A stretch of DNA of 48,316 nt from a virus, in the IMG/VR virus record IMGVR_UViG_3300045131_001716, positions 1-48,316 of that record; one strand, written 5' to 3'. Shown here in pieces: positions 1,288 to 45,927 of this stretch; position 1 is the first letter of the stretch; every line of letters starts with the position of its first letter. Below the pieces are notes generated by a model. It did not search any database and was not told the origin of the DNA. It saw only the letters and a program-made list of their open reading frames with translations. The translations under genes and the position numbers were made by a program.

Positions 1288-1356
1288 TTATTTTTTCTTT
1301 TTTAGTATCGGACAGTTCTCGTCGATATACGCTTTCACCTTTATTGGGACTTTCAT
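1288..1356 (-). CDS. Possible 22-residue basic miniprotein
   Basis: A short ORF encodes MKVPIKVKAYIDENCPILKK plus two more lysines. Its ATG overlaps the stop of the epimerase gene in the ATGA arrangement used across this operon, and its stop lies 4 nt before the phoH start. It fills the 69-nt gap between the two genes. I recognise no family. It may be translated by coupling, or may simply be a leader for phoH. Confidence 0.35.
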   Translation of the reverse strand: MKVPIKVKAYIDENCPILKKKK

Positions 1357-4041: not shown

Positions 4042-4043
4042 GT

Positions 4044-8292: not shown

Positions 8293-8338
8293 ATTATTTT
8301 TTTTTTTATTATTTTTTCTGTCCCAGATTCGACATTAT

Positions 8339-8470
8339 TTATTTGTAAAATTTCCTAATTATAGGTATTTTCACGTATCCTGTTTCCTTATCCAAATAAG
8401 TATTAGATTCAAAGTAATTTTTTAATTGTGTTTTAATATTTTCTATTATAATGTGTAGTCCCAATTTTTT
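8339..8470 (-). other. Open -1 frame after a slippery A6 run; possible C-terminal extension
   Basis: The upstream gene reads CCA AAA AAT TGG near its end, so A AAA AAT (8464-8470) is in the phase required for a -1 slip. After the slip the frame stays open for about 42 codons, through GLHIIIENIKTQLKNYFE and DKETGYVKIPIIRKFYK, to a TAA at 8339. The peptide has a helical, charged, coding-like look and no ATG of its own. It could reflect programmed frameshifting, a true one-base deletion, or a homopolymer sequencing/assembly error. Confidence 0.4.
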
Positions 8471-9153: not shown

Positions 9154-9964
9154 AATTAATCAAATAGTTTTCAAAAATCCAATCATCAAGAACACTGTAT
9201 TTTTGTACTCTTTCATAATTATCTTTTATTGCGTTTATTTTTGAATTATATAATTCTTCTGTTAGTGTTGAAACATCAAATGTTCCATCAAAAAATATAA
9301 TTCCGTCAGAATTAAAGTAATCAACAACTTTCTTTGTCCCCATGTAAATTGGAATTGTTCCTGTTGCAAAACAATCTAAGATTTTTTCAGTAAAATATGT
9401 GTCATACGTGTCATTTTCAGCGCAAAAAGAAAAACGGTAATCATTCAATCCAATTTCTTTGTTTGGGATTTCTTGTATACCTCTTCCATACACATCAATT
9501 TTATCTTGATTTGCCATTGCAAAATCATGTCTAATTTCATGTTGTGTAGTCCATCGCTTGTTTGACGTAATCATGGACGCCATTTTTGTTTTTGGATGGA
9601 TTCCAAAGTCTTTAATATAACTACCATATGCTGGCGTCCATTTGAATTTAGAATGTAACGATAATAATTCATCATTATGAGTCCAAATCTGTTCAAAAGT
9701 ATTCAGTACATCATCTAAATTAGATTTAATATTCTCTACGGCACCTCCATCAAATTTCTTTGATTCTAATACCCATAAAAATTTTTTCCTATTTCCACCA
9801 TCTACTTTATGGTCTTCAATTCCTTTAAATAAATCATTATCTAAATAAACCGAAATTGGATTATCATAACTATTGAAACACCACTCAATATGAACTGGCG
9901 GTTTGTTTGCTGTTGACCCTTTGTCATGAGCAAAATTTCCTGATAACATGTTTAACTTAACCAT
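9146..9964 (-). CDS. GT10-family alpha-1,3/4-fucosyltransferase-like enzyme
   Basis: A 272-residue protein whose C-terminal half carries the GT10 donor-binding signature FSFCAENDTYDTYFTEKILD followed by CFATGTIPIYMG (about 178-209). In GT10 the FxxxxENS...YxTEK...G..P.Y.G pattern binds GDP-fucose. The N-terminal acceptor domain (WVLESKKFDGG, TPAYGSYI) fits. Known family members add L-fucose from GDP-L-fucose to GlcNAc-type acceptors. No GDP-fucose synthesis genes are in the window, but a GDP-L-galactose-forming epimerase is (1353-2375). It overlaps the GT11 gene by 13 nt. Confidence 0.8.
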   Translation of the reverse strand: MVKLNMLSGNFAHDKGSTANKPPVHIEWCFNSYDNPISVYLDNDLFKGIEDHKVDGGNRKKFLWVLESKKFDGGAVENIKSNLDDVLNTFEQIWTHNDELLSLHSKFKWTPAYGSYIKDFGIHPKTKMASMITSNKRWTTQHEIRHDFAMANQDKIDVYGRGIQEIPNKEIGLNDYRFSFCAENDTYDTYFTEKILDCFATGTIPIYMGTKKVVDYFNSDGIIFFDGTFDVSTLTEELYNSKINAIKDNYERVQKYSVLDDWIFENYLINYV

Positions 9965-10761
9965 CCGTCTTCATATTTTACATCTAATACCGTCCAATTT
10001 GACTCGTATATATCTTTATAGTTTTGAGGTCCTCTTGGTCCAAACCAAATTGAAGGAGCTACTATTTTTTTATTTGCGTTTGTATTTAAAAAAGTTGCCC
10101 ACCATGAAAAAGTAGAATTGACCATAATGTGATTCTTACATAAAGACATTAACCACATTTCTTTATAATCCTCATCTTCTACGTAAGTTACATTTTCAAA
10201 TTTAAGATTTTCTTTAACCCAATTTTTATCATCGCTAAATACAAATACGTGAGTATATTCCCCAATTTCATTCAACGCTCTTTCAACGTATTTTTCATTT
10301 GCAATTGGGTGAATATCAGGATTCATAAAACAATCACCTCTACGAATGTGAATTGATAAAGTATTTTCTTGTTTTAATTCAGGATATTTTTCATACACTT
10401 CAGTTATGAATTCCTCAGATGGGGAAAAAGTTTTTCTAATTTCATCATCAAACCCTAAAAAGTTTTTACTGCTTTGAAAGTAACCATCAAACACGGTATT
10501 ATGGTCTTTTGGAAAAACATCACTATATTCCCAAGGACCTTCCGTAACTTTTTCAAACCCATCAATACTATCAACAAATTTTAGGTTTCTAAAAACATTG
10601 TTGACATAATTAGAGGCTTGTCTACCTTGCATTGGCGTCCATGACTGAGGAACAAAAACAACTTCTCTATTGTATTTCATACCTTCTGCCAATGCGTGAG
10701 CCGCTTGAAATATTTGATTTCCCAAACCACCCATTAAATTACACGAAATTAGATTATTCAT
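9952..10761 (-). CDS. GT11-family alpha-1,2-fucosyltransferase-like enzyme
   Basis: A 269-residue GT-B enzyme of family GT11. It starts with GGLGNQIFQAAHALA (11-25), carries the donor-binding HIRRGD (138-143), then VFVFSDDKNWVKENL and NSTFSWWATFLN (215-226). All are standard GT11 landmarks, and the length is close to the bacterial family norm (about 280-300). The family transfers L-fucose alpha-1,2 to galactose from GDP-fucose. Pairing with a GT10 next door suggests a doubly substituted glycan. It is coupled to the GT2 gene by ATGA. Confidence 0.88.
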   Translation of the reverse strand: MNNLISCNLMGGLGNQIFQAAHALAEGMKYNREVVFVPQSWTPMQGRQASNYVNNVFRNLKFVDSIDGFEKVTEGPWEYSDVFPKDHNTVFDGYFQSSKNFLGFDDEIRKTFSPSEEFITEVYEKYPELKQENTLSIHIRRGDCFMNPDIHPIANEKYVERALNEIGEYTHVFVFSDDKNWVKENLKFENVTYVEDEDYKEMWLMSLCKNHIMVNSTFSWWATFLNTNANKKIVAPSIWFGPRGPQNYKDIYESNWTVLDVKYEDGWLS

Positions 10762-11486
10762 TTAATTAATTTATTTAATTTTTGTTTATTTCTTATGATA
10801 TTTGCGCATCTTGATTGTTCTGTTAATCCACCACCACTTGCACTTCCATCTTTATGGTCATTGTATGGTGAATTTCCGTTATAAATATATAATATTTTTG
10901 GATTAAATAAATAGTGTTCCTCACCTGATAATTCTAAAAGTGGTATGGTATATGCCACATCTGCAGCAGATTTAAAATAGGTTCCGTCTTCATGTTTAAA
11001 ATAATCTTTGGGTATTGATTTCCATAAGAATGATTTCCATGTTCTTAAATGTGAAAATGTAAAAACACTTGACCTAATCTTATTAACATCAGCTTTTGAT
11101 GAAAACCCACTCAAACCATTAGAGTACTTAAAAGAACCATTTGTCAACCAAACATTCTTATTGTTGTACATTTTACGAATATCACCAATAACTTCGTTAC
11201 CCAATAAAAAATCATCACCATCTAATTCAACAATAATATCGTCATCATTAAATGTTGAGATTAATTCATCTAAGTTTTTAAGTTTAAATTTTTTTTCGGT
11301 ATTTACTACCAAATGAAATCTATCATCATCCGAAATTAATGATTTAATAATAGAAACTGATTTATCATTCGACATATCGTCTATTAGATATACCTCAAAA
11401 TCTTTATCAATTTGGTTTTTTAATGTTCTAATACAATTTGTTATGTATAATTCCGCATTCCAAAAACAACTAACAACTTTAATCAT
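10758..11486 (-). CDS. GT2-family glycosyltransferase
   Basis: A 242-residue GT-A enzyme. The N-terminus VVSCFWNAELYITNCIRTL and DFEVYLIDDMSNDKSVSI are classic GT2 opening strands; VELDGDDFLLGNEV (about 88-101) carries the metal-binding DGDD. Later, YNGNSPYNDHK and a Gly-rich stretch probably shape the acceptor site. Donor and acceptor are unknown. It overlaps the UDP-glucose-dehydrogenase-like gene by one base and the GT11 gene by four. Confidence 0.85.
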   Translation of the reverse strand: MIKVVSCFWNAELYITNCIRTLKNQIDKDFEVYLIDDMSNDKSVSIIKSLISDDDRFHLVVNTEKKFKLKNLDELISTFNDDDIIVELDGDDFLLGNEVIGDIRKMYNNKNVWLTNGSFKYSNGLSGFSSKADVNKIRSSVFTFSHLRTWKSFLWKSIPKDYFKHEDGTYFKSAADVAYTIPLLELSGEEHYLFNPKILYIYNGNSPYNDHKDGSASGGGLTEQSRCANIIRNKQKLNKLIK

Positions 11487-12646
11487 TATTGTAAATTTAT
11501 TTTATAACCTTCAGGATTAGTGCCAACTTTAAAGAATTTTAATCTACCATTGTAAGATTCACTCAAAGAGTTCAATTCTTTTGAAACAGAGTCAATTTCA
11601 ATTACATTTAACATGTAACCTTCGTCAAGTAGGTCAATACATAATTGAAATTGTTGTGATTCCTCAGTAATATCAGTACCTTTTTTGTATGTGATATAAT
11701 TCATTACAAACGGAACAGTTTTGTCAGGATTTTTTCCAATATAATATTCTTTTAAGAAATTAGCGTGTTCCTTATTAAAATTATCTACTGTTAATGGTAA
11801 ATTAAGTTCCATCCCAAGATTTTTTGCATAATGACCTAAAGCTCGATTATCTCTTGGTAAACATGGTCCGCCAAATCCAAATCCATAATTCATATATTTT
11901 TTACCAACTCTAGTGTCCCCACCAATTGCGGATAATACCATACTAATTTCATTTTCTAATCCAGATTTAATCATAATATCACCCATCATATTCGCATAAC
12001 TTATTTTTGTGGTTAAAAAACAATTAATACCTATTTTAGTTAATTCCGCAGCTTTTGGGGACATAACGTAAGCATTAACTGTTGTAGTTTGGATTTTATT
12101 ATAAATGTCAATCAAATCATCACCTAATTCAGTATATTCTGTACCAATCAAAACAATGTCGGATTGTTCTAAACCTTTAACAATTTCACCTTGAGCGATA
12201 AACTCAGGATTGTATGCGACTTGTACATTAAACATGTTTAATCTTTGTTGTACCTGTTCTGTATCACCAGGGTTGGTAGTACATCCTACAATAACTTTTT
12301 TACCATACAATTGAATATCTTGACTATTTGCACTATAAAAGTCCGATACAACATCAAAAACTTTTGTAGTGTCATAATCACCAACTAATGTGGATGGGGT
12401 TGAAACAAAAATAAAAATAAGGTCAGAATTTTTAATAACCTCAATATTATTTGTTGTTGCACTAAATTTAGTTGTGTCTAACAACATTGATTGAATCAAT
12501 GGTTCATTTGTAATACAAATTTTTTGATTAAGATTAAATACATAATCTTCTCTTATATCAGATACAATTACGTCATAACCATTTTTTTCGCAAAGTAGGG
12601 CAAATGTTAAACCAAGCCTACCAGCACCTATAATACCTATTTTCAT
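11486..12646 (-). CDS. UDP-glucose 6-dehydrogenase-like nucleotide-sugar dehydrogenase
   Basis: A 386-residue NAD-dependent dehydrogenase of the UDP-glucose/GDP-mannose dehydrogenase family. The Rossmann motif is IGIIGAGRLGLTFA (3-16); the substrate-lid motif is NPEFIAQGEIVKG (146-158); the catalytic site is FGFGGPCLPRDNRAL with Cys262. These enzymes oxidise a nucleotide hexose twice to the uronic acid, for example UDP-glucuronate. It is slightly short at the C-terminus compared with the usual 400-450 residues. The next gene downstream of the promoter side is NAD synthetase, which would supply its cofactor. Start and stop are coupled to both neighbours. Confidence 0.85.
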   Translation of the reverse strand: MKIGIIGAGRLGLTFALLCEKNGYDVIVSDIREDYVFNLNQKICITNEPLIQSMLLDTTKFSATTNNIEVIKNSDLIFIFVSTPSTLVGDYDTTKVFDVVSDFYSANSQDIQLYGKKVIVGCTTNPGDTEQVQQRLNMFNVQVAYNPEFIAQGEIVKGLEQSDIVLIGTEYTELGDDLIDIYNKIQTTTVNAYVMSPKAAELTKIGINCFLTTKISYANMMGDIMIKSGLENEISMVLSAIGGDTRVGKKYMNYGFGFGGPCLPRDNRALGHYAKNLGMELNLPLTVDNFNKEHANFLKEYYIGKNPDKTVPFVMNYITYKKGTDITEESQQFQLCIDLLDEGYMLNVIEIDSVSKELNSLSESYNGRLKFFKVGTNPEGYKINLQ

Positions 12647-13422
12647 AAAATTTTATTTTTGTTTAAATCAAAAATTGGGATTGGGACCATTTTGTGTTTA
12701 TTTTTGTGATTAAGGATTTGATATATATTTACCACATCATGTTCTTTTTCAGTGTGAAATTCTTTATCTTCACCATATTCCATTGCCCACTCTAACTCTT
12801 CATAAGTTGCGCCAATTTGGGTCTCATCAACTCTATTGTCATCCCATAAACCATCTGTTGGTTCGGCATCAATAATTTCTTGAGGTATTCCTAAATGACG
12901 ACTAAGTTCTCTAACTTCAGTTTTATATAAATCTGCGATAGGTGAAATATCTACACCACCATCACCATATTTTGTAAAAAACCCAACTCCAAAATCTTCA
13001 ACTTTATTTCCAGTACCAACAACAATACCACCTTTACTTGCAGAAATTTGATATAATGTTATCATTCTTAATCTTGCTTTGGTGTTTGCAAATCCTAAGT
13101 CAGAAGGGTAATTTGAGGACATTAATTTATTGTATGAATTATAAATTAAACTTAAATCAATCTCTTCAGATTCAACTTTATATTGTTTTAAATATAATAA
13201 TTGTTTCTTTGATAATTCAGTATTATTAGAATTGGAATTAATTGGCATACCAATAGCAATTGTTGGAATTCCTGTTTTGGCACATAATGTGGATACCACC
13301 GCAGAATCAATACCACCTGAAACACCAACAACCAATGTTTTTATATTATGTTTATTCACATAATTAATAATCCAAGTTTGGATTTTTTCGGATAAATTTT
13401 CATAATCAATTATTCGATTCAT
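12643..13422 (-). CDS. nadE: Ammonia-dependent NAD+ synthetase
   Basis: A 259-residue NadE of the short, NH3-dependent type (no glutaminase domain). The ATP pyrophosphatase loop is VVGVSGGIDSAVVS (31-44), followed by NTKARLRMITLYQIS, GTGNKVEDFGVGFFTKYGDGGVD (in two conserved blocks) and DAEPTDGLWDDNRVDETQIGA; all are NadE hallmarks. It adenylates deamido-NAD and amidates it to NAD+. Three enzymes in this operon need NAD (the epimerase, the sugar dehydrogenase and probably the alcohol dehydrogenase). It could also help counter NAD-depleting host defences, but no partner NAD-salvage gene is visible here. Confidence 0.92.
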   Translation of the reverse strand: MNRIIDYENLSEKIQTWIINYVNKHNIKTLVVGVSGGIDSAVVSTLCAKTGIPTIAIGMPINSNSNNTELSKKQLLYLKQYKVESEEIDLSLIYNSYNKLMSSNYPSDLGFANTKARLRMITLYQISASKGGIVVGTGNKVEDFGVGFFTKYGDGGVDISPIADLYKTEVRELSRHLGIPQEIIDAEPTDGLWDDNRVDETQIGATYEELEWAMEYGEDKEFHTEKEHDVVNIYQILNHKNKHKMVPIPIFDLNKNKIL

Positions 13423-15047
13423 TCTAAAATTTTTATATATTCATCTTTTATTTTTTGTGCGACATTCATCGTATAATATTTCTCAATATCTGTTGGTGGT
13501 TCATGTTTTTCTTTAGATAAAATAAATCCACCAGAATCTACTTTATATATCCAACTTGATTTACCACACATCCAACTTTCAATTGTTGTTCTACCTAACT
13601 GAATACCTGCGGTTTCATATGATTTTAAAATAAAATCTTCAACTTTCCAAGTTGACGGGAAATATCTAACATGGTCTTCCAATAAAATATTTTCTAAATA
13701 ATTTCCATTATTTTCACCAACCAACCAAAGTTCTTTTCCAATTTCTTTAGTATATTCAATTAAATCTAAAATAGATTCTTTTCTCAAATAATCTATAGTA
13801 CCAACAAATAATACGTAATTTTCCTCTGACGCATTTTTTAATTGGAATTTTTCATTATCAACAGGGTTATAAATTACCTCAATCATTTCTTCAGGTATTT
13901 CAAAATTGTTCATCATGTGTTCCTTAATTTCAGGACGAATTGCAACATATTTTTTAATTGTTGGGTCAACAACAGGGTCTTCTAATGAAATTACTTCTGA
14001 ATGTATTGCACATATTTTAGGTAATTCAGGGTACATGTTAAGGATTCTTTCGGCAACTGGTTTGTGCTGGAAATGAACGATATCATAATCTACTTCGGAT
14101 ACACGATATAATGCGTTTGGTGTTGATGGTTTAAACCCTTCAGGTGTATTTGTTCCCCATTGTCCATCACCAAGTTTGAAACCTGGCGCGTTTTCAAATG
14201 ACACACATTTAATTCCAAGTTTTTTTGCCATGTCAGTTACAGGTCCACCAATTTGTGAAAGAACCGTAACACTACAGTTTAATTTAATTAAACTTTTAGC
14301 TAACTCAAAAACATATAACTCAGAACCTGTAAAGTTTCTAAAGGAAATACAAGATAATAAAACCTTTAATCGTTTATTAACATCAAACGGAATTTTTGAT
14401 GGTAAGTTCCCCCCATATTTTTTAACAAAAAATTCTCTATTATCTTCCCATTGTTGATTGGTCTGACCAATTGACTTGTGAGTGATTCTAACGTTTGTGA
14501 TAACACCAACCTTAACATCTTCTATATAATTCCTATAACAAAATGCAATGTCATAAAAATGAAACCCTTCAAACTCCTCGTCAAAAGTATATTTAATTCT
14601 TGATTTACTTAACGCAATAAACACACCATCAACAATAACAGTCGGTTTAATTGATTTACCTAAATCATCAGAGTATTTTGATGTCCATTTTTTTCCTTCA
14701 CTCTCATGGTTAACAATACCAATCATGGTATTTCTTGAATCCCACCATCTACCTGTTTCTGGCATATTGGTAGTGCCCGCAACACCTAAGATACCGTAAT
14801 CAGTTTTTTCAAAATGAGTTTTAATTTTGTGGAACCAACTTGATGTATCAAAGTAAATGTCATCATGACAAAGAACCACTATGTCAGTTTTTGATTCCTC
14901 AAGAATTTCATTATAAACTTGAGATAATGATTTCTCTCCGTTATTAATCTTTTCAATAACTTCTATTTTTTTAAACCCCGAACTTTTTTTTAAGTACTCG
15001 ATAAATTGGGGGTTATGTTCTCTTGTTGAATATCCTACTGTAATCAT
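13419..15047 (-). CDS. Two-domain glycosyltransferase: StrF/GT2-like plus GT4-like
   Basis: A 542-residue fusion. Residues 1-220 look like the StrF-type GT2 variant: VGYSTREHNPQFIEYLKKS, then VVLCHDDIYFDTSSW (57-71) as the metal site and GVAGTTNMPETGRWWDSR. From about residue 228 a GT-B fold of the GT4 type begins: VLLSCISFRNFTGSELYVFE, IVHFQHKPVAERIL, EVIYNPVDNEKFQ and LFVGTIDYLRKESIL, with LGRTTIESWMCGK at the donor site. A two-active-site enzyme probably adds two sugars in sequence. It is coupled to nadE by ATGA; the gap to the dUTPase gene is 10 nt. Confidence 0.75.
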   Translation of the reverse strand: MITVGYSTREHNPQFIEYLKKSSGFKKIEVIEKINNGEKSLSQVYNEILEESKTDIVVLCHDDIYFDTSSWFHKIKTHFEKTDYGILGVAGTTNMPETGRWWDSRNTMIGIVNHESEGKKWTSKYSDDLGKSIKPTVIVDGVFIALSKSRIKYTFDEEFEGFHFYDIAFCYRNYIEDVKVGVITNVRITHKSIGQTNQQWEDNREFFVKKYGGNLPSKIPFDVNKRLKVLLSCISFRNFTGSELYVFELAKSLIKLNCSVTVLSQIGGPVTDMAKKLGIKCVSFENAPGFKLGDGQWGTNTPEGFKPSTPNALYRVSEVDYDIVHFQHKPVAERILNMYPELPKICAIHSEVISLEDPVVDPTIKKYVAIRPEIKEHMMNNFEIPEEMIEVIYNPVDNEKFQLKNASEENYVLFVGTIDYLRKESILDLIEYTKEIGKELWLVGENNGNYLENILLEDHVRYFPSTWKVEDFILKSYETAGIQLGRTTIESWMCGKSSWIYKVDSGGFILSKEKHEPPTDIEKYYTMNVAQKIKDEYIKILE

Positions 15048-15057
15048 TATTTAATAT

Positions 15058-15687
15058 TTAAATTCCCGTACTTCCAAATCCATTATCACCTCTATCTTTT
15101 TCATCAAGTTGGTCAACTTTTTCAAATCTAACATATTCCCCATTTATGACAGGACATAGAACTGCTTGTCCAACTTTCATTCCTTTTGAAATCATTACGG
15201 AATGGTTATTTGTATTAAACACAATTACTTGTATTTCACCTGTATATCCTTGGTCTACAGTTCCTGGTGTATTAAGAACGGTTAATCCTTGTTTAATTGC
15301 TAAACCGCTTTTAGGTCTAATTTGAAGTTCATAACCTTTCTCAAAAGAAACTTTAATCCCTGTTGGAACTAAAATTCTACCAAATGGTTTAATTTCTAAA
15401 TCTTGTGTTGAGTGTAAATCAAATCCTGAATCGGATAGGTATGCATATTTTGGGAAAACGGCATCTTTGTGAATTAATTCAACTTCAATAGTTCGTGTCT
15501 GAGAATTTTTAAAAAACTCATCATCTAAATCTTCAAAACCCTCTAAATCAACTCCAAAAAGTTCTTCAAGTTCTTTTTGAGATTCTTCATCTGGTTCTAT
15601 TCCAGAGTCAGATTTAATTTTTTCAAATTTTTCAAGAATGTCATTATAAATTTTTGGGTCAAATCCCATATTATTTAAATTTTTCAT
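15058..15687 (-). CDS. dut: dUTPase with acidic N-terminal extension
   Basis: A homotrimer-type dUTPase with all five motifs: DSGFDLHS (86-93), RPKSGLA (124-130), GTVDQGYTGEIQV (142-154), KGMKVGQAV (168-176) and RGDNGFGSTG (199-208). It hydrolyses dUTP to dUMP, keeping uracil out of phage DNA. At 209 residues it is about 60 longer than usual: residues 1-63 form an extra Glu/Asp-rich helical segment with no recognised domain, perhaps a partner-binding arm. The start shares a base with the stop of the exonuclease gene. The gene sits among glycan genes, which suggests that the operon is expressed with early nucleotide metabolism. Confidence 0.93.
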   Translation of the reverse strand: MKNLNNMGFDPKIYNDILEKFEKIKSDSGIEPDEESQKELEELFGVDLEGFEDLDDEFFKNSQTRTIEVELIHKDAVFPKYAYLSDSGFDLHSTQDLEIKPFGRILVPTGIKVSFEKGYELQIRPKSGLAIKQGLTVLNTPGTVDQGYTGEIQVIVFNTNNHSVMISKGMKVGQAVLCPVINGEYVRFEKVDQLDEKDRGDNGFGSTGI

Positions 15688-16388
15688 TATTTTAAATCTA
15701 TTAATTTTTTTATTACTTCAATTAATACGGACACATCCTTTTCACAATACTTTACAATTCCCTCAATATCCTTTTTAATCCAAAAAGCTTCATGTACTTT
15801 ATTCCCTGTTATCTCCATTGTTTTTGATGACTCAACACCCAAACAAACACACATAAGTTCAAGAGACGCAATAGAACCATATCCACCGTATTGCCAAACT
15901 TCTTTTGTGTCTAAAGCTTTAATTTCCCACGGTTTAGTGTCGTGACCAGGTAAAATTTTTGGTGGCATAATTCCATTCATAATCATTCGTTTTGCTAACA
16001 TAGGGATGTCAAATCCCTTTACATTATGTCCACATAAAAAAAATCCTAGTTCTCCAACTCTATGTAAAAGTTTTTGAACATCTAATAACATTTTTTTCTC
16101 ATCAGTATCACTAAATGATTGCATTTTTATTTCGCCACTTTCAGTTACAAATGCAACACTAATACAAGCAATTCTTGCAAATTCGGGAACTAAGGCAGAA
16201 CGATTGACAAACATTTGAGAGACTCCATTAGCCCCATCTTCAGGAAATCTTTTTTGAAACCAATCAAAATAGTGTTCAAATTGAAATGAAAGGGATTCGT
16301 TATTTTTAACTAATGAATCCCAATCAGGTTGTATTCCGACAGTTTCAATGTCTAAAAATAAAATTTTGGTTAATGGTATGTTAATCAT
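15687..16388 (-). CDS. DEDD-type 3'-5' exonuclease (PolB-exonuclease-like)
   Basis: A 233-residue DnaQ-superfamily nuclease. Exo I is ILFLDIETVG (8-17), Exo II is CGHNVKGFDIPMLAKRM and Exo III is YCEKDVSVLIEV near the C-terminus, giving the D-E-D-D metal ligands. The arrangement matches the predicted 3'-5' exonucleases related to the proofreading domain of DNA polymerase II. The substrate could be DNA or RNA ends. It is one base overlapped with dut. The phage polymerase at 33270-35999 has its own exonuclease domain, so this is an additional nuclease. Confidence 0.85.
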   Translation of the reverse strand: MINIPLTKILFLDIETVGIQPDWDSLVKNNESLSFQFEHYFDWFQKRFPEDGANGVSQMFVNRSALVPEFARIACISVAFVTESGEIKMQSFSDTDEKKMLLDVQKLLHRVGELGFFLCGHNVKGFDIPMLAKRMIMNGIMPPKILPGHDTKPWEIKALDTKEVWQYGGYGSIASLELMCVCLGVESSKTMEITGNKVHEAFWIKKDIEGIVKYCEKDVSVLIEVIKKLIDLK

Positions 16389-16394
16389 ATTATA

Positions 16395-17612
16395 TTATTT
16401 AATTATTGATAAATAAAAAGCTCTTCTATCTTTTGTTACGTTATTTAAATCATACTTGTCTTTAACAGTTTCATATAATCTTTCCCCCATATCTTTTACC
16501 ATGTTAGGGTTCTCAACTAATTTTTTAATATGTTTCGCCCAATCAGAGTGATTTCTATTTTCATCAACTAACATTGCGTTTCCATCAACAAAGTTACCGT
16601 GATTTAAACAATGTTTTAAATCTATTGTATATGGACCTAAATCAGATGCAATAAGAGCTTTTTTATAAAATCCCGCTTCAATTACTTTTAATTGTGATTT
16701 CATTCTATTAAACATTGTATTTTTAATAGGTGATAAAGATACATCAAATTTTGAATAATTTTTGGCGTAAGATGTTACAGGTTGAGTCCAAACTCTTACA
16801 TATGATTCGTCATATTGATTTGGGTAAACCTCTTGAGTATAGTTTAATAAATACTTTTTGTAGTCTTCTGACACCAATACATGGTTTTGGGTAAATATTT
16901 TTTCGTACTGAGCCCAAACAGTCTCATGTGGCAAAATATCTCTTTTATTATGTTCTCCTGTTTGGTTATTAATTTCCGTTACGGTTCCTCTTGTATCAAA
17001 ACCACATAAAACAAATTGTAATTTATCTTTAAGATTAATAATCTTATTAAAAGATTGGTCTAATAATTGAATGTCATGTAAATGAGAAGAACCTCCTAAC
17101 CAACCAATTCTTAATCGGTCTGATTCTAATGTTGGTTCTTTAAATTGTGTTTCATTTGGATTAATTGCATTTGGAAAAACAAAAACGTTTTTATTAAATT
17201 TTCTAATTTCAGTTGCAAATATTTCAGTTGTTGTTGTAATATATGTTGCGACTTTAAGATTTGCAACAATTTTTTCATTAATCTTATTAAATTTAATAAT
17301 ATCATGAATTGGGTGTTCTTTACCTGGCATCCAATAATCATCAATATCAGCAACAGTGATTATCCCTAATAAATTTAATTTTTGAATTAATTCATGGGCT
17401 TTTTCAAAATCAGAACCAATACTTCTATGGAATACCACTATTTGATATTTAGACCAAAAGACCATATCATCATACTGTGGGTCAAATATAATATCAACAT
17501 GAAATTCATCTGAATATAAATTTTGTAAAAAAATATGAGGGTCTATTGAACGAAATTTTCCAACACCAGTTTTATCACTAGGGATAACTAAAACATTAAT
17601 TTTTTTTTCCAT
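16395..17612 (-). CDS. GT4-like glycosyltransferase
   Basis: A 405-residue GT-B protein, first gene of the long minus-strand operon. The N-terminal domain has INVLVIPSDKTGVGKFRSID and VVFHRSIGSD; the second domain begins near FVFPNAINPNETQF and LRIGWLGGSSHLHDIQLL, as in GT4 enzymes. The late KVIEAGFYKKALIASDLGPY matches the E(x7)E donor-binding region. Acceptor and donor are unknown. The start at 17612 follows an A/T leader of about 34 nt downstream of a sigma70-like promoter; there is no Shine-Dalgarno sequence. Confidence 0.8.
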   Translation of the reverse strand: MEKKINVLVIPSDKTGVGKFRSIDPHIFLQNLYSDEFHVDIIFDPQYDDMVFWSKYQIVVFHRSIGSDFEKAHELIQKLNLLGIITVADIDDYWMPGKEHPIHDIIKFNKINEKIVANLKVATYITTTTEIFATEIRKFNKNVFVFPNAINPNETQFKEPTLESDRLRIGWLGGSSHLHDIQLLDQSFNKIINLKDKLQFVLCGFDTRGTVTEINNQTGEHNKRDILPHETVWAQYEKIFTQNHVLVSEDYKKYLLNYTQEVYPNQYDESYVRVWTQPVTSYAKNYSKFDVSLSPIKNTMFNRMKSQLKVIEAGFYKKALIASDLGPYTIDLKHCLNHGNFVDGNAMLVDENRNHSDWAKHIKKLVENPNMVKDMGERLYETVKDKYDLNNVTKDRRAFYLSIIK

Positions 17613-36314: not shown

Positions 36315-37430
36315 TTAAATTACATATATTTGACGAGGCATTGCTCTGAATTTCATTTGTTTATTTAGATTTTCAGCGAGTAACGCTTCTTTTTCCATTA
36401 CTTTTTCAGGACGTAATCTTGTTAACCAACCTTCAGCCCCTGTCAATTCTTCAATCAACTTTGTCTTTTCGTCTTTACCTTCAGTTAATAAACTTGTGTA
36501 GTCCATTGTTAATTCTGAATCAGGAGCCTTTAAATTTCCACTGTATTTTCCTCTAACTCGACCTAACGTTTCTTTAACATATGCGGTGAACCATCTTCTT
36601 ACCCATTGTTGTGCGGGAACATTTAAGTCAACCCAATTCATTTCTTCTAAAGGAACTTCGTTTGGCATTTTAATTACGTCAGGATTATTTTTTAAACAAT
36701 CAGCTCTACTATCAGGTGTTACATCGTAGTACCAATACCAAACAGCATTACCAACGTATTGACTATAATTACTCCAATTAAATCGACTACCAGGTGCATT
36801 GTATAACTGTAAATCTTTTTTACCATCAGGTAATGCAGTAATTCTATAAGTTAAAGAACCACCAAGGATTCTTTTTATAATATTCGCTTCTTGCATTCTT
36901 ATCAAGTAATCAAACCCTGACATCATATAATAAGAACCCTGATTACCCACTTGGGCAAAACCAGATTCATTTGCACCAAGACCTGCTCCAGCACCAATAC
37001 CTCCCATACCAAATGCAGTAATAGGTCGATTACTAAACCATAGTACTTCATTTATTTCACGACCTGCAGGGATTTCGTAGTTTTGTTTGTTTTTTTCAAG
37101 AACAATATAATCTTTTTTTAATACCCAAGGACCTTCAGCTTGAAGACCCACAATTTTTGAGTATGAATATGAGAATTGTTTTTCAAAATCCATTGTTCTT
37201 GTGATTAACGCTTGAGCAACAGATTTTTCACTCATATTAAGATTAACCAAGTTAACCCATTGACTATCAATTAGCCAATTTAAGATATACTGTTCGTAAT
37301 CTTGAATGGATAATTCCATTAACGAATCCATCATTTCATCAGTGACTTCAACACTTCTTAATGGTGCACCCAATAGATGTTTTATTCTCGTATAAATTTT
37401 TGACCTTTCTGGTTCTGGTATAACTGACAT
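36315..37430 (-). CDS. gp13-like neck/head-completion protein
   Basis: A 371-residue protein. RIKHLLGAPLRSVEVTDEMM followed by DSLMELSIQDYEQYI matches the opening of T4-like neck proteins and related connectors (LGAP...VEVTDEQ...A...Y). The C-terminal half has a Trp-rich helix, FTAYVKETLGRVRGKYSGNL and a late charged helix, again as in that group. A Gly-rich loop (FGMGGIGAGAGLGANESG) near residue 140-160 is unusual. T4 gp13 is 309 residues; this copy is longer. It acts in joining the filled head to the tail. The call rests on motif memory, not a search. Confidence 0.6.
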   Translation of the reverse strand: MSVIPEPERSKIYTRIKHLLGAPLRSVEVTDEMMDSLMELSIQDYEQYILNWLIDSQWVNLVNLNMSEKSVAQALITRTMDFEKQFSYSYSKIVGLQAEGPWVLKKDYIVLEKNKQNYEIPAGREINEVLWFSNRPITAFGMGGIGAGAGLGANESGFAQVGNQGSYYMMSGFDYLIRMQEANIIKRILGGSLTYRITALPDGKKDLQLYNAPGSRFNWSNYSQYVGNAVWYWYYDVTPDSRADCLKNNPDVIKMPNEVPLEEMNWVDLNVPAQQWVRRWFTAYVKETLGRVRGKYSGNLKAPDSELTMDYTSLLTEGKDEKTKLIEELTGAEGWLTRLRPEKVMEKEALLAENLNKQMKFRAMPRQIYVI

Positions 37431-37454: not shown

Positions 37455-38984
37455 TTATATACTATATAAAAGTGAATCAAGTGGAAAAACAAAATTACCA
37501 CCAACAATTTTTGGTTTTTTATCAAACACTAAAACATTCTTTCCTCGTTGAAAAACCATCCAATCCGTTTTATATAATTTAACACTTGCGGTACCCTCCA
37601 ATTCAATTCCACTTTCAGTTTTTTTCATTTCTCTAAATGGTTTAACTTGTGCGGTGTGTAACTTACCATCTTTAAATATTTCTAAATCAACACCTTGAAT
37701 TGCATCTTTTTTATTTCCTAACTCACCAACCAACTCAACTTTTGCATTTTGACCAAAAAATCTTTTAAGGATTGATAACGTAATTTGTTCTCTTTTATCA
37801 CCTGCATTATTTTTTTCTGTTAAGGTTCTTAATAAATTAATAAATGTTGAACTTTGTTTATCAAATATTCTATATTTAAAATGTCCTAACGCATTTACAA
37901 ATCTCTCAACTTCTTTTTTCTGTTCTGCGGGAGTTTTATCGGTAAAAACGATTGGTTTTTTATTTGGTATAGTTGTAATAACTTGATTTAAATCTTTTAA
38001 TAAAATACAAAATGCTGTGTAATTTGTGTTGAGTTTATTAATTACTGACCTACCAGGTCCCTCAATATCATAAATACCCGGTAATTGATTATTTGGAGGA
38101 ATTTCAATATAATTTTCATTAAAAACTTCTTTGAGGATTCTATTGATACCATTCATGTAAGTCCATTTAATATCTTGATTTACGTTGAATAACATTCTGT
38201 AAAATTCGTTATCAGATTTTGAACACATTTCAGATTTACCTTCACTTAATATTTGTTTCATTTTGGTAGATTCTGTTATTTTGGTTTCAACTCTCATTTC
38301 GTACATTTTAGTTACAAATTCCCAATTAACAACTTTCCAAAAGTTTGTTATGTATTCGTCTCTTTTATTTCGGTACTTCAAATAATAAGCGTGTTCCCAT
38401 AAATCTAACCCCAACAATGGAAACCCACCACCTTCAATCACATTCATTAATGGATTATCTTGGTTTGGAGTTGACATAATCTTTAAAGTGTTATTAGAGG
38501 TTAGAATTAACCACGACCAACCTGAACCAAAACGGTCTTTGGATTGTTTTTCAAATTCTTTTTTAAAGTTTGTAAATGTTCCCCACTGTTTGGTGATTTT
38601 TGTATAAAGTTCACCAGTTAGTTTTTTTGGTTCGGGAGTTAACATATTCCAAAACAAAGCGTGGTTAAATGCTCCACCTGCGTTATTTCGAATTGTTTTA
38701 TCAAAACGATTAATAGTTTTGATTATTTTTTCTAAATCTAAATCTCCGTATTTTTTCTTTGATAATGCGTCGTTTAGTTTATCGACATACCCTTTGTAAT
38801 GTTTATTGTAATGGAAACTCATGGTTTCGGGGTCAATAAACTGTTTGAGGGCTGAGTAGGAATAAGGTAGTTTCTCTATTCCGATTTTTTTCATTTCTGT
38901 AATCAACAACTCTTTTTCTTTGGTTACGTGATTTTCAAGTATCTGTAATTCTAGTTGTTGGATTTTCTCTTGTGTTTTTTTCAT
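37455..38984 (-). CDS. Mn-type superoxide dismutase fused to a putative PD-(D/E)xK nuclease domain
   Basis: A 509-residue fusion. Residues about 38-230 are a complete Fe/Mn superoxide dismutase: MSFHYNKHYKGYV (ligand His58), NNAGGAFNHALFW (His108), then LGLDLWEHAYYLKYRNKRD (Asp194, His198). GG before the second ligand and Gln175 in TPNQDNPL are Mn-type features. Residues about 235-390 are a helical region of unknown type. The C-terminus has DKREQITLSILKRFFG (Glu399), AIQGVDLEIFKDG (Asp433, Glu435) and LHTAQVKPF (Gln446-x-Lys448), the order expected for an Mrr-like PD-(D/E)xK nuclease. The dismutase call is firm; the nuclease call is by motif only. An N-terminal coiled-coil-like helix (1-30) precedes the enzyme. 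Confidence 0.8.
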   Translation of the reverse strand: MKKTQEKIQQLELQILENHVTKEKELLITEMKKIGIEKLPYSYSALKQFIDPETMSFHYNKHYKGYVDKLNDALSKKKYGDLDLEKIIKTINRFDKTIRNNAGGAFNHALFWNMLTPEPKKLTGELYTKITKQWGTFTNFKKEFEKQSKDRFGSGWSWLILTSNNTLKIMSTPNQDNPLMNVIEGGGFPLLGLDLWEHAYYLKYRNKRDEYITNFWKVVNWEFVTKMYEMRVETKITESTKMKQILSEGKSEMCSKSDNEFYRMLFNVNQDIKWTYMNGINRILKEVFNENYIEIPPNNQLPGIYDIEGPGRSVINKLNTNYTAFCILLKDLNQVITTIPNKKPIVFTDKTPAEQKKEVERFVNALGHFKYRIFDKQSSTFINLLRTLTEKNNAGDKREQITLSILKRFFGQNAKVELVGELGNKKDAIQGVDLEIFKDGKLHTAQVKPFREMKKTESGIELEGTASVKLYKTDWMVFQRGKNVLVFDKKPKIVGGNFVFPLDSLLYSI

Positions 38985-39025: not shown

Positions 39026-40780
39026 TTAATATCTCAATTCATTAATTCTTTGTAGGATTTCTTCTGCAGCATCTGCTGGATGTTGGTTGTCTCCCATTAC
39101 AGTTGCAATGACTTGTTTTTTGTTGTTTAGGATATCGTAGATGATACCTTCGATTGTATTTTCGAATATTGGATAATAAACCAAAACGTTATTTTTTTGA
39201 CCGTAACGATAAGCTCGGTCTTCAGCTTGGGCGTGGTCTGATGGAAGGAATGATAAGTCATTCATAATAACAGCTTCAGCAGCAGTTAATGTTATACCGA
39301 CACCAGCAGCTTTAATATTACCTACAAAGACTTTAATCTTGGGGTTATCTTGGAATTGGTCAACGGAGTTTTGTCTGTTGGGTTTTGACATAGAACCATC
39401 AAGTTTAACCGCGGCTTTACCAAAATGTTCTGCAATTTTATTTAACGAATCGGTGAAATTACAGAAAATGATTACTTTCTTATCTTGTTCAAGAATATTT
39501 TCCGCTAGTTCAATAGTTTGTTCAATTTTTTCATCGGCAATAATTTGTCTAATTTTTGTTAACTTTGAAAATTGAACGGTTAATGATTTGGATTCGTCAG
39601 GGTTCTTGTCATACCAATCATAGTATTCTCCCATAACATTTTCATATAATTTTGATTTTAATCTTAGGTAAACAGGTGTGATAATCTTATCGGGTAAATC
39701 AAGAACATTTTCTTTTAATCTTCTTAATGTTAAACCTAAGGTTCGGTCTCTTAACTCTTCCAAGTTTGACGCCCCTGTTACATTCCAAATCTTTCTTCCC
39801 CCAACATTAAATTGGTATCCAGAACAATAACGGATAGCGTATGCCATCCAATTCTTTGCAACAGGAGAATCAATTATACTTAATAAATTAAAATAATCGA
39901 TTGGCCGTGATGTCATTGGTGTACCCGTTAACAACCAAAGTCTTTCGGTATTTTTGACAATATCATTGATTAGTTTCGTCCTCTGCGCCGTACCATTCTT
40001 AATATAATGGGCTTCATCGATAATAACTAAATCAAAGTTGGACGCAAGGACTTGAGATTCGTTTTTCTTTTTAGGGTCATGGAAATTTTTAATTATGTCG
40101 TAGTTTATGATTACAAAATCAGCTTCGGTACTGAAATTTTTACTTTCTGCAATGTAGATTGATTTGTCTGAGTAATTTTCAATCTCACGTTTCCAGTTAA
40201 TTTTTAATGTTGCAGGACAAATGATTAATACTTTTTTTGAGTTTGATTCTAACGCAGCAATAATTGTTGAGGTTGTTTTACCAAGACCCATATCGTCGGC
40301 AAGGATAAACTTTTTATTCTCAACCAATTTTTGTATTGCTTCTTTTTGGTGTTCAAGTGGTGGACGATGTGAATACTTCGAGTAATCAATTACCACATCT
40401 TTAACTGAATTGTCTTTGATAATTGCGGCCTTTGGTAACCAAAAATCGTGAAGTTCTTCATTTTCAAAAACTCTACCCCAAATGTGGTAAGCCTTTTCTT
40501 TATCCGCCAATAACTTCTCAACCCAAACTTTTTGTGGAATTTCAGTATATAATTTGTCGTCGGCTAATTTCTGAGCAAAGTATGTGTCAAGGATTACCCA
40601 TTTTTTTGCGACTTTTGGTTGTTTATTGTGAAAATTAATAATGTATTCTGATTGGCTCCTTGTTGGATAAAATTTTCTATTAACCTGTGATTTACGTTTT
40701 AATTCCAAGATATAGTTATTGCCACCCTCATATGACTCAAGAATGGACATTGCCTTTGATTCTAAACTAACGTTACTCAT
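39026..40780 (-). CDS. SNF2-family DNA helicase/translocase (SMARCAL1-like)
   Basis: A 584-residue superfamily 2 protein. Motif I ADDMGLGKTTSTIIA (161-175), Ia LIICPATLKINWKRE, II VIIDEAHYIKNG (252-263), III WLLTGTPMTSRPIDYFNL, IV VIIFCNFTDSLNKI, V GNIKAAGVGITLTAA and VI QAEDRAYRYGQKNNV are all present. SNF2 enzymes move on duplex DNA; the compact SMARCAL1-like form anneals or remodels forks. A T4 analogue by role would be UvsW. The N-terminal 135 residues carry a family-specific extension. It is preceded by a sigma70-like promoter. Confidence 0.92.
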   Translation of the reverse strand: MSNVSLESKAMSILESYEGGNNYILELKRKSQVNRKFYPTRSQSEYIINFHNKQPKVAKKWVILDTYFAQKLADDKLYTEIPQKVWVEKLLADKEKAYHIWGRVFENEELHDFWLPKAAIIKDNSVKDVVIDYSKYSHRPPLEHQKEAIQKLVENKKFILADDMGLGKTTSTIIAALESNSKKVLIICPATLKINWKREIENYSDKSIYIAESKNFSTEADFVIINYDIIKNFHDPKKKNESQVLASNFDLVIIDEAHYIKNGTAQRTKLINDIVKNTERLWLLTGTPMTSRPIDYFNLLSIIDSPVAKNWMAYAIRYCSGYQFNVGGRKIWNVTGASNLEELRDRTLGLTLRRLKENVLDLPDKIITPVYLRLKSKLYENVMGEYYDWYDKNPDESKSLTVQFSKLTKIRQIIADEKIEQTIELAENILEQDKKVIIFCNFTDSLNKIAEHFGKAAVKLDGSMSKPNRQNSVDQFQDNPKIKVFVGNIKAAGVGITLTAAEAVIMNDLSFLPSDHAQAEDRAYRYGQKNNVLVYYPIFENTIEGIIYDILNNKKQVIATVMGDNQHPADAAEEILQRINELRY

Positions 40781-42705: not shown

Positions 42706-45700
42706 ATGGCAGCACAAGCAAATCAAAAAGTATTTGTATCACCTGGAGTGTACACATCGGAAACCGACTTATCATTTATCGCCCAAAGTGTGGGGGTAAC
42801 AACTTTAGGCCTTGTTGGAGAAACTTTAAAAGGTCCAGCATTTGAACCAGTATTCATAACGAATTTTGACGAATTCCAATCATATTTTGGTGGTTCAGAG
42901 CCCGTTAAATTTTATGGTACTCAGATACCAAAATATGAGGCGGCATATATTGCCAAATCATATTTACAACAATCAAATCAATTATTTGTAACAAGAATTT
43001 TAGGATTGTCCGGATATGATGCAGGACCGTCTTGGAGTCTTTCATTAGTTGCTAATGTTGACCCAACAACTATTTCTGCACCATCAAATCCTGTGGCTTT
43101 TACTGCAACGTTTACCGGTACATCATCTGGAGGCACATTTAACCTTATAAGTGGGACATTACCAAATCAAGTTGAACTAAATAAACAATATAAATTACAA
43201 GACGGTTCAGTATCTACAATACAAACCGATTTTAACAATTATTTAAGCGAGATTGTAAATACAACATCACTTTCAGCAACAACGTCAGTTATATATGGCT
43301 CAATACTTTATGATGACAATTATTCTCTTACATATGGAAGACCTAATGTAAAAACTCCATATGATTGTGTACCTATTTTAGAAGAAAATAATTTATCTGC
43401 GTCGTCAAACGACCCTTGGCTTTATGCTAATTTTAATATTTCTTCAGGAAATAATTATTCGGGTTATTCTTTTTATTATGTTATTGATAATATAATTTCT
43501 AATGTGGATTCTAATTTTACGGTTACTATTTCTGGAGCTTCCGTTAATTTTACAGGTATGGCGTACACCGACTTCAATAATATGGTTGTTGGTACTATTC
43601 GTTCACGAGGTATTTGTAATTATGTTAATAGTGCCGGAAGTAATGACCATGGTCCAGTTTATGAGGTTGGTATTGATTACAACAATAATAATACTTGGGT
43701 TCCAAATAATTTACAAATAGTTTGTACTGGACAATATTCAGGTATTACAGAATCACCTTATTCATCTTTTTTATTATCGGGTTTAACAAATGATAATAAA
43801 ACATTTTCATTTGAAACGTCATTAAGTGCATCTTCGTCAAAATATATTACAAAAGTATTAGGTGTTGATAATTTTGGTAAATCAAGGTATGAAGTTCCTA
43901 TTTACGTTGAAGAGATTTATCAAGGAAGTTTGAATTATGCTTATAGTCAAAATTATATCCGTGGATTAAGTTGTGATTTAATTGCTTTACCTGATGCAAG
44001 AAGTCAATCAAGTCAATCAATTGCTTGGAATTTAGAACAATACCAATCACCTGAAACACCTTATTTGGTTTCTGAATTAAGAGGTAACCAAGTTTATAAT
44101 TTATTTAAATTTATATCAATTTCCGATGGAAATGATGCAAATACTGAAGTTAAAATTTCAATCGCTAACTTATCATATAATAATATGTCGTTTGATGTTT
44201 TTATTAGAAATTTTTATGACTCTGACTCAAATCCAGTTGTAATTGAAAAATTCACAAATTGTAATATGGACCCAGCATCAAATAACTTTGTTGGAAAAAA
44301 AATAGGTTCATCTAATGGCGAATTTGCGTTAATTTCAAGATATGTTATGGTTGAAATGGCGGATGAATACCCAATTGACTCACTACCTTGTGGTTTCCGT
44401 GGTTACACACAAAGAGAATATGAAGACGCTTCGGTTTACCCATCACCATATCCAAAATATAAAATAAAATATGATTACCCTGGAGAAGTTATTGCTAACC
44501 CACCATTTGGAACACCTATTGGTGGCTCAAATACTGTTGAATCTCCTGGAGATGTTATAAGAAGAACATATTTAGGATTCTCAACACAGTATGGAATTGA
44601 TGAATCATTTTTAACTTATAAAGGAAAACAAAACCCTCAATCAAATTGGGCTTTGGCAACTGACTCATTTAAATGGAACTACACTAGTAAAGGTTTCCAT
44701 ATGGACTCAGGAGCAACTGTTGTATCAATTGCTAACACATCAATGACAAGTGGTCAAACAGCTTTTGAATGTGGTACTGCTGAATTTAGAAGTGACCCAG
44801 AAACACAAGAAAATCCGTATTATTTCATATATTCAAGAAAATACACACTATGTTTTGCTGGTGGGTTTGATGGTTGGGACATTTATAGAGAGTGGAGAAC
44901 TAACGAAGATAGATTTCAATTAGGAGCTGCGGGTTATTTAGCTGGTAGTGCACCTTCATCAAGATATCCAACCGCAACAGGTGATGGATTGTTTAAAAGA
45001 ATTGTGGTTCAGAACAATACTCAAGATTTTGCAAATACTGACTACTACGCATATTTACTTGGTATTCTATCATTTGCAAATCCAGAATCAACTAACATTA
45101 ATATATTTGCAAGTGCAAGCATTGACTACGTAAATAACTCAAACCTTGTTGAGGAAGCGATAGACATGATTCAATTTTCAAGAGCGGATTCGGTTTATAT
45201 TTGTACAACACCTGATTATAAAATGTATACTCCAGACGGAACAAGTTCTTTGGACGTTATTTATCCTCAAGAATCAGTTGACAATTTAAATAATACAGGA
45301 ATTGACTCTAACTATACAGCAACTTATTTCCCTTGGATTTTAACAAGGGATACTGTTAATAACACACAAATTTATTTACCTCCGACAGGTGAGGTTTGTA
45401 GAAACTTAGCTTTAACCGATAACATTTCATTCCCTTGGTTTGCATCTGCGGGTTATACTAGAGGACTTGTAAACTCTATTAAGGCTAGACAAAAACTTAC
45501 ACAAACCGACAGAGATGTACTATATCAAGGTAGAATAAATCCTATCGCAACTTTCTCTGATGTTGGAACTGTAATTTGGGGTAATAAAACATTACAAATT
45601 GCTGACTCAGCACTTAATAGATTGAATGTAAGAAGATTGTTACTTCAAGCTCGTAAGTTAATTTCCGCAGTAGCTGTAAGATTATTATTTGAACAAAACG

Positions 45701-45927
45701 ACCAAGTTGTTAGACAACAATTCTTGGATAGTGTTAATCCTATTTTGGATTCAATTAGAAGAGATAGAGGTTTATATGATTTCCGTGTAACAGTTTCATC
45801 TTCACCTGAAGATTTAGACAGAAACACATTAACAGGTAAAATTTATTTAAAACCTACAAGGGCGTTAGAATTTATAGATATTGAATTCTTAATTACACCA
45901 ACAGGGGCTTCATTTGAAAATATTTAA
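42706..45927 (+). CDS. Tail sheath protein (T4 gp18-like), enlarged
   Basis: A 1073-residue sheath protein. The N-terminus KVFVSPGVYTSETDLSF (9-25) and GVTTLGLVGETLKGPAFEPV match gp18, and the C-terminal sheath domain is clear: NPIATFSDVGTVIWGNKTLQ, LNVRRLLLQARKLISAVAVR, QQFLDSVNPILDSIRRDRGL and ALEFIDIEFLITPTGA. T4 gp18 is 659 residues, so about 400 are added, mostly in the middle (roughly 130-650), where beta-rich, Asn/Ser-rich segments probably form outward-facing insertions. The sheath contracts to drive the tube through the envelope. Confidence 0.93.
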   Translation: MAAQANQKVFVSPGVYTSETDLSFIAQSVGVTTLGLVGETLKGPAFEPVFITNFDEFQSYFGGSEPVKFYGTQIPKYEAAYIAKSYLQQSNQLFVTRILGLSGYDAGPSWSLSLVANVDPTTISAPSNPVAFTATFTGTSSGGTFNLISGTLPNQVELNKQYKLQDGSVSTIQTDFNNYLSEIVNTTSLSATTSVIYGSILYDDNYSLTYGRPNVKTPYDCVPILEENNLSASSNDPWLYANFNISSGNNYSGYSFYYVIDNIISNVDSNFTVTISGASVNFTGMAYTDFNNMVVGTIRSRGICNYVNSAGSNDHGPVYEVGIDYNNNNTWVPNNLQIVCTGQYSGITESPYSSFLLSGLTNDNKTFSFETSLSASSSKYITKVLGVDNFGKSRYEVPIYVEEIYQGSLNYAYSQNYIRGLSCDLIALPDARSQSSQSIAWNLEQYQSPETPYLVSELRGNQVYNLFKFISISDGNDANTEVKISIANLSYNNMSFDVFIRNFYDSDSNPVVIEKFTNCNMDPASNNFVGKKIGSSNGEFALISRYVMVEMADEYPIDSLPCGFRGYTQREYEDASVYPSPYPKYKIKYDYPGEVIANPPFGTPIGGSNTVESPGDVIRRTYLGFSTQYGIDESFLTYKGKQNPQSNWALATDSFKWNYTSKGFHMDSGATVVSIANTSMTSGQTAFECGTAEFRSDPETQENPYYFIYSRKYTLCFAGGFDGWDIYREWRTNEDRFQLGAAGYLAGSAPSSRYPTATGDGLFKRIVVQNNTQDFANTDYYAYLLGILSFANPESTNINIFASASIDYVNNSNLVEEAIDMIQFSRADSVYICTTPDYKMYTPDGTSSLDVIYPQESVDNLNNTGIDSNYTATYFPWILTRDTVNNTQIYLPPTGEVCRNLALTDNISFPWFASAGYTRGLVNSIKARQKLTQTDRDVLYQGRINPIATFSDVGTVIWGNKTLQIADSALNRLNVRRLLLQARKLISAVAVRLLFEQNDQVVRQQFLDSVNPILDSIRRDRGLYDFRVTVSSSPEDLDRNTLTGKIYLKPTRALEFIDIEFLITPTGASFENI

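Follow-up and report, generated by a model that had tools for sequence, protein, structure and literature searches.

A superoxide dismutase inserted into a putative branched-DNA nuclease recurs in T4-like phages

We describe a phage protein in which a complete Mn-type superoxide dismutase (SOD) and a predicted PD-(D/E)xK nuclease share one polypeptide, a fusion that is real, recurrent and apparently overlooked, and for whose mechanism we put forward a hypothesis. The protein is encoded by a 509-aa open reading frame (ORF) with an ATG start, located at 37455-38984 on the minus strand of a 48-kb IMG/VR virus record, which as a whole is referred to here as the window. The reading that we favour, with a probability of roughly 0.45, is that of a bifunctional recombination enzyme of T4-like phages carrying a DNA-tethered protective SOD, both of whose activities we infer.

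The same pair of domains is found in many phage contigs. A scan of IMG/VR with the whole protein gave 589 confirmed relatives, a number that is not a tally of fusions because some of the search patterns fall within the SOD; the best 80 of them were taken, and in all 80 loci the SOD and the C-terminal domain lie in one ORF, at 74-100 percent identity, with four ending at a contig edge. When residues 229-509 alone were used for the scan, 53 loci were retrieved, the most distant at about 42 percent identity, and in every one of them the ORF also contains the SOD. Both counts agree with the sequence-only reading that dismutase and nuclease form a single polypeptide, and an assembly artefact was rejected, since the same one-ORF fusion stands on many independent contigs. 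All scans taken together with two huge-phage records yielded at least 344 loci with an ORF containing the C-terminal domain; a search for other genomes with the same domain pair, proposed earlier as a check, thus found the fusion in 275 of these fetched loci (on contigs that are partly repeated), the remaining 69 having no SOD in that ORF, and neither figure is a frequency because contigs recur between scans and only the best matches were taken. Included in the 69 SOD-less loci are the two huge-phage homologs (L187 and L268) and locus L209. The removal of L187, L268, incomplete nuclease matches and identical proteins left 149 distinct proteins, with the L209 nuclease ORF among the 25 SOD-less ones. 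In L209 (3255-4817), SOD and nuclease occupy two ORFs in different frames, which may be due to a frameshift in sequencing or to a genuine split. A cellular origin of the fusion was also tried and rejected, as 140 stretches matched in genome contigs contained no relative. The L268 protein, used as a query, had no relative among viral contigs.

All parts of the gene are given here by their minus-strand coordinates. The protein opens with a helix (residues 1-37, 38874-38984) that we assign to the nuclease family, a similar helix opening many of the SOD-less relatives; a start of the type MKN.ENK(I/V)..I.E.I is present in the fused proteins and in many, not all, of the SOD-less ones. In the full-length AF2 model, which is middling overall (pLDDT 80.9, pTM 0.56), this helix spans residues 2-37, and residues 30-44 fall below pLDDT 50. 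The SOD domain follows (residues 38-226, 38307-38873), and after it comes the junction with the core of the nuclease family (residues 227-254, 38223-38306), represented in the models by a low-confidence helix that covers residues 221-248 in the full-length model, the model of the C-terminal part scoring below pLDDT 50 at residues 229-238 and 240-250. The rest of the protein consists of a helical domain (residues 255-390, 37815-38222), conserved within the nuclease family and recognised from the C-terminal model and its invariant positions, and of a PD-(D/E)xK (REase-fold) nuclease domain (residues 391-509, 37458-37814), assigned from its predicted fold and the invariant residues E399, D433, Q446 and K448. 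PHROGs places the fused protein in no family, and gives matches only at E > 0.05 for the SOD-less and C-terminal forms.

The assignment of the SOD half comes from its pair of Pfam domains, from profile and structural matches, and from an invariant active site. Sod_Fe_N (PF00081) matches residues 36-115 with an E-value of 7e-22 (78.1 bits against a cut-off of 27), and Sod_Fe_C (PF02777) matches residues 123-226 with an E-value of 1.2e-38 (131.7 bits against a cut-off of 20.9). A profile built from 27 full-length relatives matches solved SODs over residues 38-231 approximately (best E 1.6e-70), and the SOD part of the full-length model aligns to solved SODs with Z-scores of 15-16 (up to 16.2) over 177 residues at an rmsd of 3.6. 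The four metal ligands H58, H108, D194 and H198 are kept in all 124 distinct SOD-bearing proteins, so that the complete Mn-type dismutase domain read earlier from the letters is upheld. Equally kept in 124/124 are G103, G104 and Q175, which we take to be markers of the Mn type, H62 and Y66, presumably the gateway residues, and E197 and Y200, presumably part of the dimer interface, according to the roles of these residues in MnSODs. Compared with the Mn/Fe SOD family (PF00081/PF02777), for example that of Bacteroidota, the phage domain is alike in its full domain pair, ligands, Mn-type markers and dimer-interface residues; unlike the bacterial SODs, it has an N-terminal helix before it and a nuclease after it in the same protein, and a long stem sets it apart.

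Selection on the two halves was estimated by a counting method from pairs with dS between 0.1 and 1.2. Among 148 usable pairs of 2500 sampled, the median omega was 0.042 for the SOD and 0.107 for the nuclease, and the median for SOD-less nucleases was 0.186 (207 pairs). By these estimates, both domains are under purifying selection, stronger on the SOD. MnSODs are dimers and Hjc-type resolvases work as dimers, and these facts, along with the invariance of E197 and Y200, would accord with a SOD fold that acts as a dimerisation and DNA-docking scaffold pairing two nuclease domains at a junction, with catalysis being secondary. We regard this as very unlikely, since the metal ligands, the gateway pair and Q175 are just as invariant as the interface, the omega of the SOD is that low, and the SOD-less relatives manage without it.

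The SOD-less proteins show, at the level of sequence, that the nuclease is the core and the SOD the insert. Many of those encoded at the same locus begin with a similar N-terminal helix and pass directly into sequence of the nuclease family, so the SOD is an insert behind that helix; in some SOD-less lineages the N-terminus is shorter still. The fusion had previously been read as a dismutase joined end to end with a nuclease, of which the single polypeptide stands and the end-to-end arrangement does not. In a tree, 59 phage SODs group in a single clade with a support of 100/100, and a stem of 0.62 separates them from 41 bacterial SODs, which are mostly from Bacteroidota and were taken as about every second of 83 BLAST rows among the best matches of the query itself. 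The 83 matched bacterial ORFs end 1-20 residues past the SOD.

The SOD was probably gained once and lost twice. A root placed by two diverged paralogs falls among SOD-bearing sequences, with a 14-member SOD-less clade nested inside them, an order of gain before loss that is likely, not proven, because the outgroup branch is very long; L187 and L268, from phage records of 635 kb and 735 kb, had been left out before rooting because of their branch lengths of 9-10 in the tree. The recent loss is the clear one as judged from the alignments: nine contigs (L304-L312) share an ORF length of 322 aa, in which the stretch that precedes the SOD joins directly the stretch that follows it, and the nuclease of L307 is 93 percent identical to that of the SOD-bearing L326 (the same contig as L246), the DNA of the two differing by an in-frame loss of 609 bp with a 3-bp overlap at the junction. 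The older 14-member clade would probably represent the second loss. A search with PF02777 found no SOD at all in the nine SOD-less records and exactly one in each of 12 SOD-bearing records, always in the fused ORF (512-530 aa). Since the SOD-less lineages hold no other SOD (9/9 records), the enzyme is dispensable.

This pattern bears on an alternative according to which the SOD is an ordinary auxiliary metabolic gene serving the cytoplasm of the infected cell and its fusion to a nuclease is merely convenient for co-expression. Loss in some lineages fits an accessory trait, and a viral Fe/Mn SOD has been listed with auxiliary genes that may buffer ROS (PMC12542629). We consider it rather unlikely nonetheless, because the fusion, of single origin, has been kept while the C-terminal halves have drifted to only about 42 percent identity, because no second SOD occurs in any of the 12 SOD-bearing records, and because useful expression levels would presumably be reached more easily from a free gene.

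The C-terminal half is, on its predicted fold, a PD-(D/E)xK-like nuclease. Pfam gave no match over the cut-off in this half, and weak matches in family members to DUF6602 (10 of 18) and ABC-3C MC4 (6 of 18). Modelled alone with AF2 from 53 rows, the C-terminal 281 residues reach a pLDDT of 89.0 and a pTM of 0.83. A Foldseek search of this model against the PDB gave no match at E <= 0.001, the top one being the homing endonuclease I-Ssp6803I (E 1.7e-3, probability 1.00), with Hjc resolvases scattered among many chance-level chains, and a profile search of PDB sequences with this half returned a single chance match (E 0.44). Upon structural re-alignment of the matches listed, the top row was the Hjc of Archaeoglobus (Z 8.3 over 99 residues, rmsd 3.4, 14 percent identity), and the top 17 rows were Hjc-type resolvases, I-Ssp6803I, NhoI and SPARDA complexes; TnsA/gp4 and Mrr were absent among the re-aligned rows listed. 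The restriction-endonuclease fold, on whose refutation the sequence-only reading would have fallen, is therefore not refuted, and of the Mrr-like nuclease that it named, the PD-(D/E)xK fold is retained, while the nearest solved folds among the matches listed are of the Hjc type.

Residues E399, D427, D433, Q446 and K448 are kept in all 149 distinct proteins, 124 with and 25 without SOD. At position 435, glutamate is found in 81 of the 124 SOD-bearing and 22 of the 25 SOD-less proteins, and mostly lysine otherwise. Because Glu435, earlier thought to be catalytic, is not conserved, the invariant set of the nuclease comprises E399, D433, Q446 and K448. Archaeal Hjc, the best solved fold listed for residues 395-509 or so, presumably presents its residues in the same E...D...xK order; in contrast to Hjc, with which it is about 14 percent identical, the phage nuclease has a glutamine where the third motif has its acidic residue, carries an extra helical domain and the SOD, and is unmatched by the Pfam model of Hjc. 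Such glutamine variants have been described for the PD-(D/E)xK superfamily (PMC1189080).

The region of residues 255-390, approximately, was first taken for a linker of some 155 helical residues, a view that has to be abandoned. The region is instead one of the domains that make up the nuclease family: its helices are predicted with high confidence in the C-terminal model, the motif GRS..N.LNTN within it is invariant in 53/53 rows, and it occurs in the SOD-less relatives, with a partial match in diverged paralogs of two related records, G010 and G004. These diverged second copies of the nuclease family (L426, 3030-4106, minus strand, 359 aa, in G010; L427, 2806-3930, plus strand, 375 aa, in G004) differ in their N-terminal part, and the family seems to be modular. 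In BFVD, the nuclease half also matches a protein of 1113 aa from an uncultured marine phage (A0A8D9CCA0; E 1.3e-16, TM 0.78), which suggests another fusion partner.

The gene has an almost fixed position. Upstream of it in the window lies a UvsW-like SNF2/SF2 DNA helicase of 584 aa (39026-40780, minus strand; PF00176, phrog_62), and downstream a gp13-like neck protein, or head-tail adaptor Ad2, of 371 aa (36315-37430, minus strand; phrog_211, E 2e-10), the three genes being on one strand with gaps of 41 bp to the helicase and 24 bp to the neck gene. The location between a helicase and a neck-protein gene had been recognised from the sequence, and it recurs in the relatives: among SOD-bearing loci with room, 226 of 233 have the helicase at most 600 b upstream and 245 of 245 have the neck gene downstream. 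For SOD-less loci with room, L209 being counted as one of them, the figures are 57 of 62 for the helicase and 59 of 63 for the neck gene. In seven SOD-bearing loci the upstream helicase was not recognised, and in two SOD-less contigs, each fetched twice, neither neighbour was.

With a neck gene directly downstream, it is conceivable that the protein serves in the virion or in packaging; the nuclease would then act in the neck or in head completion and the SOD would protect packaged or ejected DNA. The neck gene follows directly in every SOD-bearing locus with room, and T4 gp4, a head-completion protein, has a REase-fold nuclease domain according to a jumbo-phage survey (PMC7824862). This alternative is distinctly unlikely in our view, since the linkage to UvsW is nearly as tight and the best folds among the matches listed are those of Hjc resolvases. 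As to the SOD, protection of DNA, which the sequence-only reading had suggested for packaged DNA, is retained as the best reading, and the protected DNA would putatively be intracellular, recombining DNA rather than packaged DNA.

A recombination role would fit what else was found in these phages. The nuclease family is present in all 21 large related records, as is expected because these records were chosen through the nuclease. No Pfam match over the cut-off to endonuclease VII, RuvC, RusA or T7 endonuclease I was found in the 21 related records, and the Hjc model (PF01870) matched none of 22 records, 21 of them holding the nuclease; as controls, the endonuclease VII search recovers its match in phage T4 and PF01870 matches in 4 of 14 control genomes. 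Below the cut-off, an endonuclease VII-like match was seen in G020 and a T7 endonuclease I-like one in G003. The absence of these five families over the cut-off from 21 records would make the nuclease probably the junction-resolving enzyme of the phage, an absence that weighs little because many records are fragments. Together with the Hjc-like fold and the linkage to UvsW, it makes a Holliday-junction or branched-DNA resolving enzyme the most likely identity of the nuclease, a specificity that we infer, because the structural matches are of middling strength and restriction and homing enzymes share this fold. In G004 and G010, the rival second copies could be the resolvase instead.

The idea raised earlier from the sequence, a conflict nuclease that degrades the DNA of the host or of rival phages and is possibly redox-gated through the SOD, could draw on the homing endonuclease at the top of the Foldseek PDB matches, on the restriction enzymes among the re-aligned rows, and on the weak Pfam matches to DUF6602 and ABC-3C MC4. 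It is nevertheless highly improbable, given that a near-fixed locus and conservation in 149/149 proteins are unlike a rapidly exchanged weapon and that no sign of redox gating was seen. Its nearly fixed position next to UvsW, its Hjc-like fold and the absence, over the cut-off, of the five Pfam resolvase families from 21 related records point instead to a housekeeping branched-DNA nuclease.

The mechanism that we propose for the bifunctional recombination enzyme is the following. The nuclease, with its own helical domain, would work with the UvsW-type helicase encoded next to it, resolving junctions or other branched DNA while recombination-dependent replication proceeds and ahead of packaging. 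Behind the N-terminal helix, a complete Mn-type SOD was probably inserted on a single occasion. Each half probably acts as a dimer, which would place a SOD dimer on the same DNA-bound assembly, where it may clear superoxide at the replication and recombination complex of the phage, and in this way DNA and oxidant-sensitive replication enzymes would be spared during infection. A bolder version, possible but doubtful, would see in this protein an enzyme class of its own: a junction-resolving nuclease that keeps a SOD permanently tethered to DNA, so that local control of superoxide would be integral to phage recombination and superoxide or the bound metal might couple both activities.

We know of no earlier case of a covalent union between an antioxidant enzyme and a DNA nuclease, and the protein, if rightly interpreted, would be to our knowledge the first antioxidant enzyme built covalently into one. 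It would allow tests of whether phage recombination and packaging are limited by oxidative stress in the infected cell, and of whether SOD on DNA matters more than SOD in the cytoplasm. It also offers a candidate resolvase for those T4-like phages without a match to five known resolvase families, and the SOD-bearing and SOD-less versions, among them one close pair with a clean deletion, represent a natural experiment.

Partial precedents exist for a SOD near nucleic acids. The iron SODs PAP4 and PAP9 of the plastid RNA polymerase, PAP9 chains being among the structural matches of the SOD part, resemble the phage protein in that a SOD is attached to a nucleic-acid machine, whereas they are separate subunits, belong to plant plastids, and come without a nuclease; their proximity has been proposed to protect the machine (PMC8278866). 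The MnSOD of E. coli associates with DNA (Steinman 1994, cited in PMC3211030), and MnSOD has been reported by the latter paper to be associated with DNA in mitochondrial nucleoids as well. The jumbo-phage survey mentioned above describes some phages without a recognised junction resolvase, and several T4-type and other phages whose REase-fold proteins are uncharacterised and bring archaeal resolvases to mind (PMC7824862).

In the open PMC literature, covered by titles and starts of abstracts among the papers listed and with subscription papers mostly outside it, no description of a SOD-nuclease fusion was found; the main text of the Far-T4 paper does not mention superoxide, SOD, UvsW, gp13, nuclease or synteny, and the SOD passages of the Lac Pavin paper concern bacterial SODs. 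In the databases, the nuclease half has a match (E 1.1e-22, TM 0.82, 33 percent identity) in the BFVD model of UniProt A0A6J5L953, a protein of 501 aa named 'superoxide dismutase [uncultured Caudovirales phage]'. Its name and length make it very probable that this is the fused protein, deposited earlier under a name that covers the superoxide dismutase alone and leaves the nuclease half unnamed, which suggests that 'superoxide dismutase' entries can hide a nuclease. Other SOD-like genes were met in phage records. Those of PA5oct-like Pseudomonas phages and Vibrio phage 2.275.O are diverged (28-29 percent identity), and are annotated as 'hypothetical protein' in the PA5oct records. Several OR84/OR85 records and AFYI01000005/AGRM01000004, filed as phage, contain SOD genes of ordinary bacterial appearance and are possibly DNA of bacteria.

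The phages themselves can be described as T4-like on the following grounds. The window encodes a tail sheath, a UvsW-like helicase and a family B polymerase (PolB), and a T4-type portal (Portal_T4) is found in 11 of 21 related records, the other 10 being all under 160 kb and likely fragments; five related records measure 270-320 kb. The window has a GC content of 31 percent, and a Shine-Dalgarno-like motif precedes none of 42 chosen genes (of 57 mechanical ORFs). Scarcity of such motifs is a general feature of Bacteroidota, and its combination with the affinity of the SOD to that phylum suggests a Bacteroidota host. Counts of late-promoter motifs gave no support for an excess, with 14 of TATAAATA against 11 expected and 114 of TAAATA against 126. 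Two further features of the window deserve mention. About 16 kb on the minus strand (1353-17612) form a run with genes for sugar nucleotides and glycans, namely an epimerase, a DegT aminotransferase, a UDP-glucose dehydrogenase, and fucosyltransferase-like and other glycosyltransferases among unassigned ORFs. The tail sheath (42706-45927, plus strand) is a protein of 1073 aa whose best sheath match is limited to residues 854-1071, its N-terminal part being very large.
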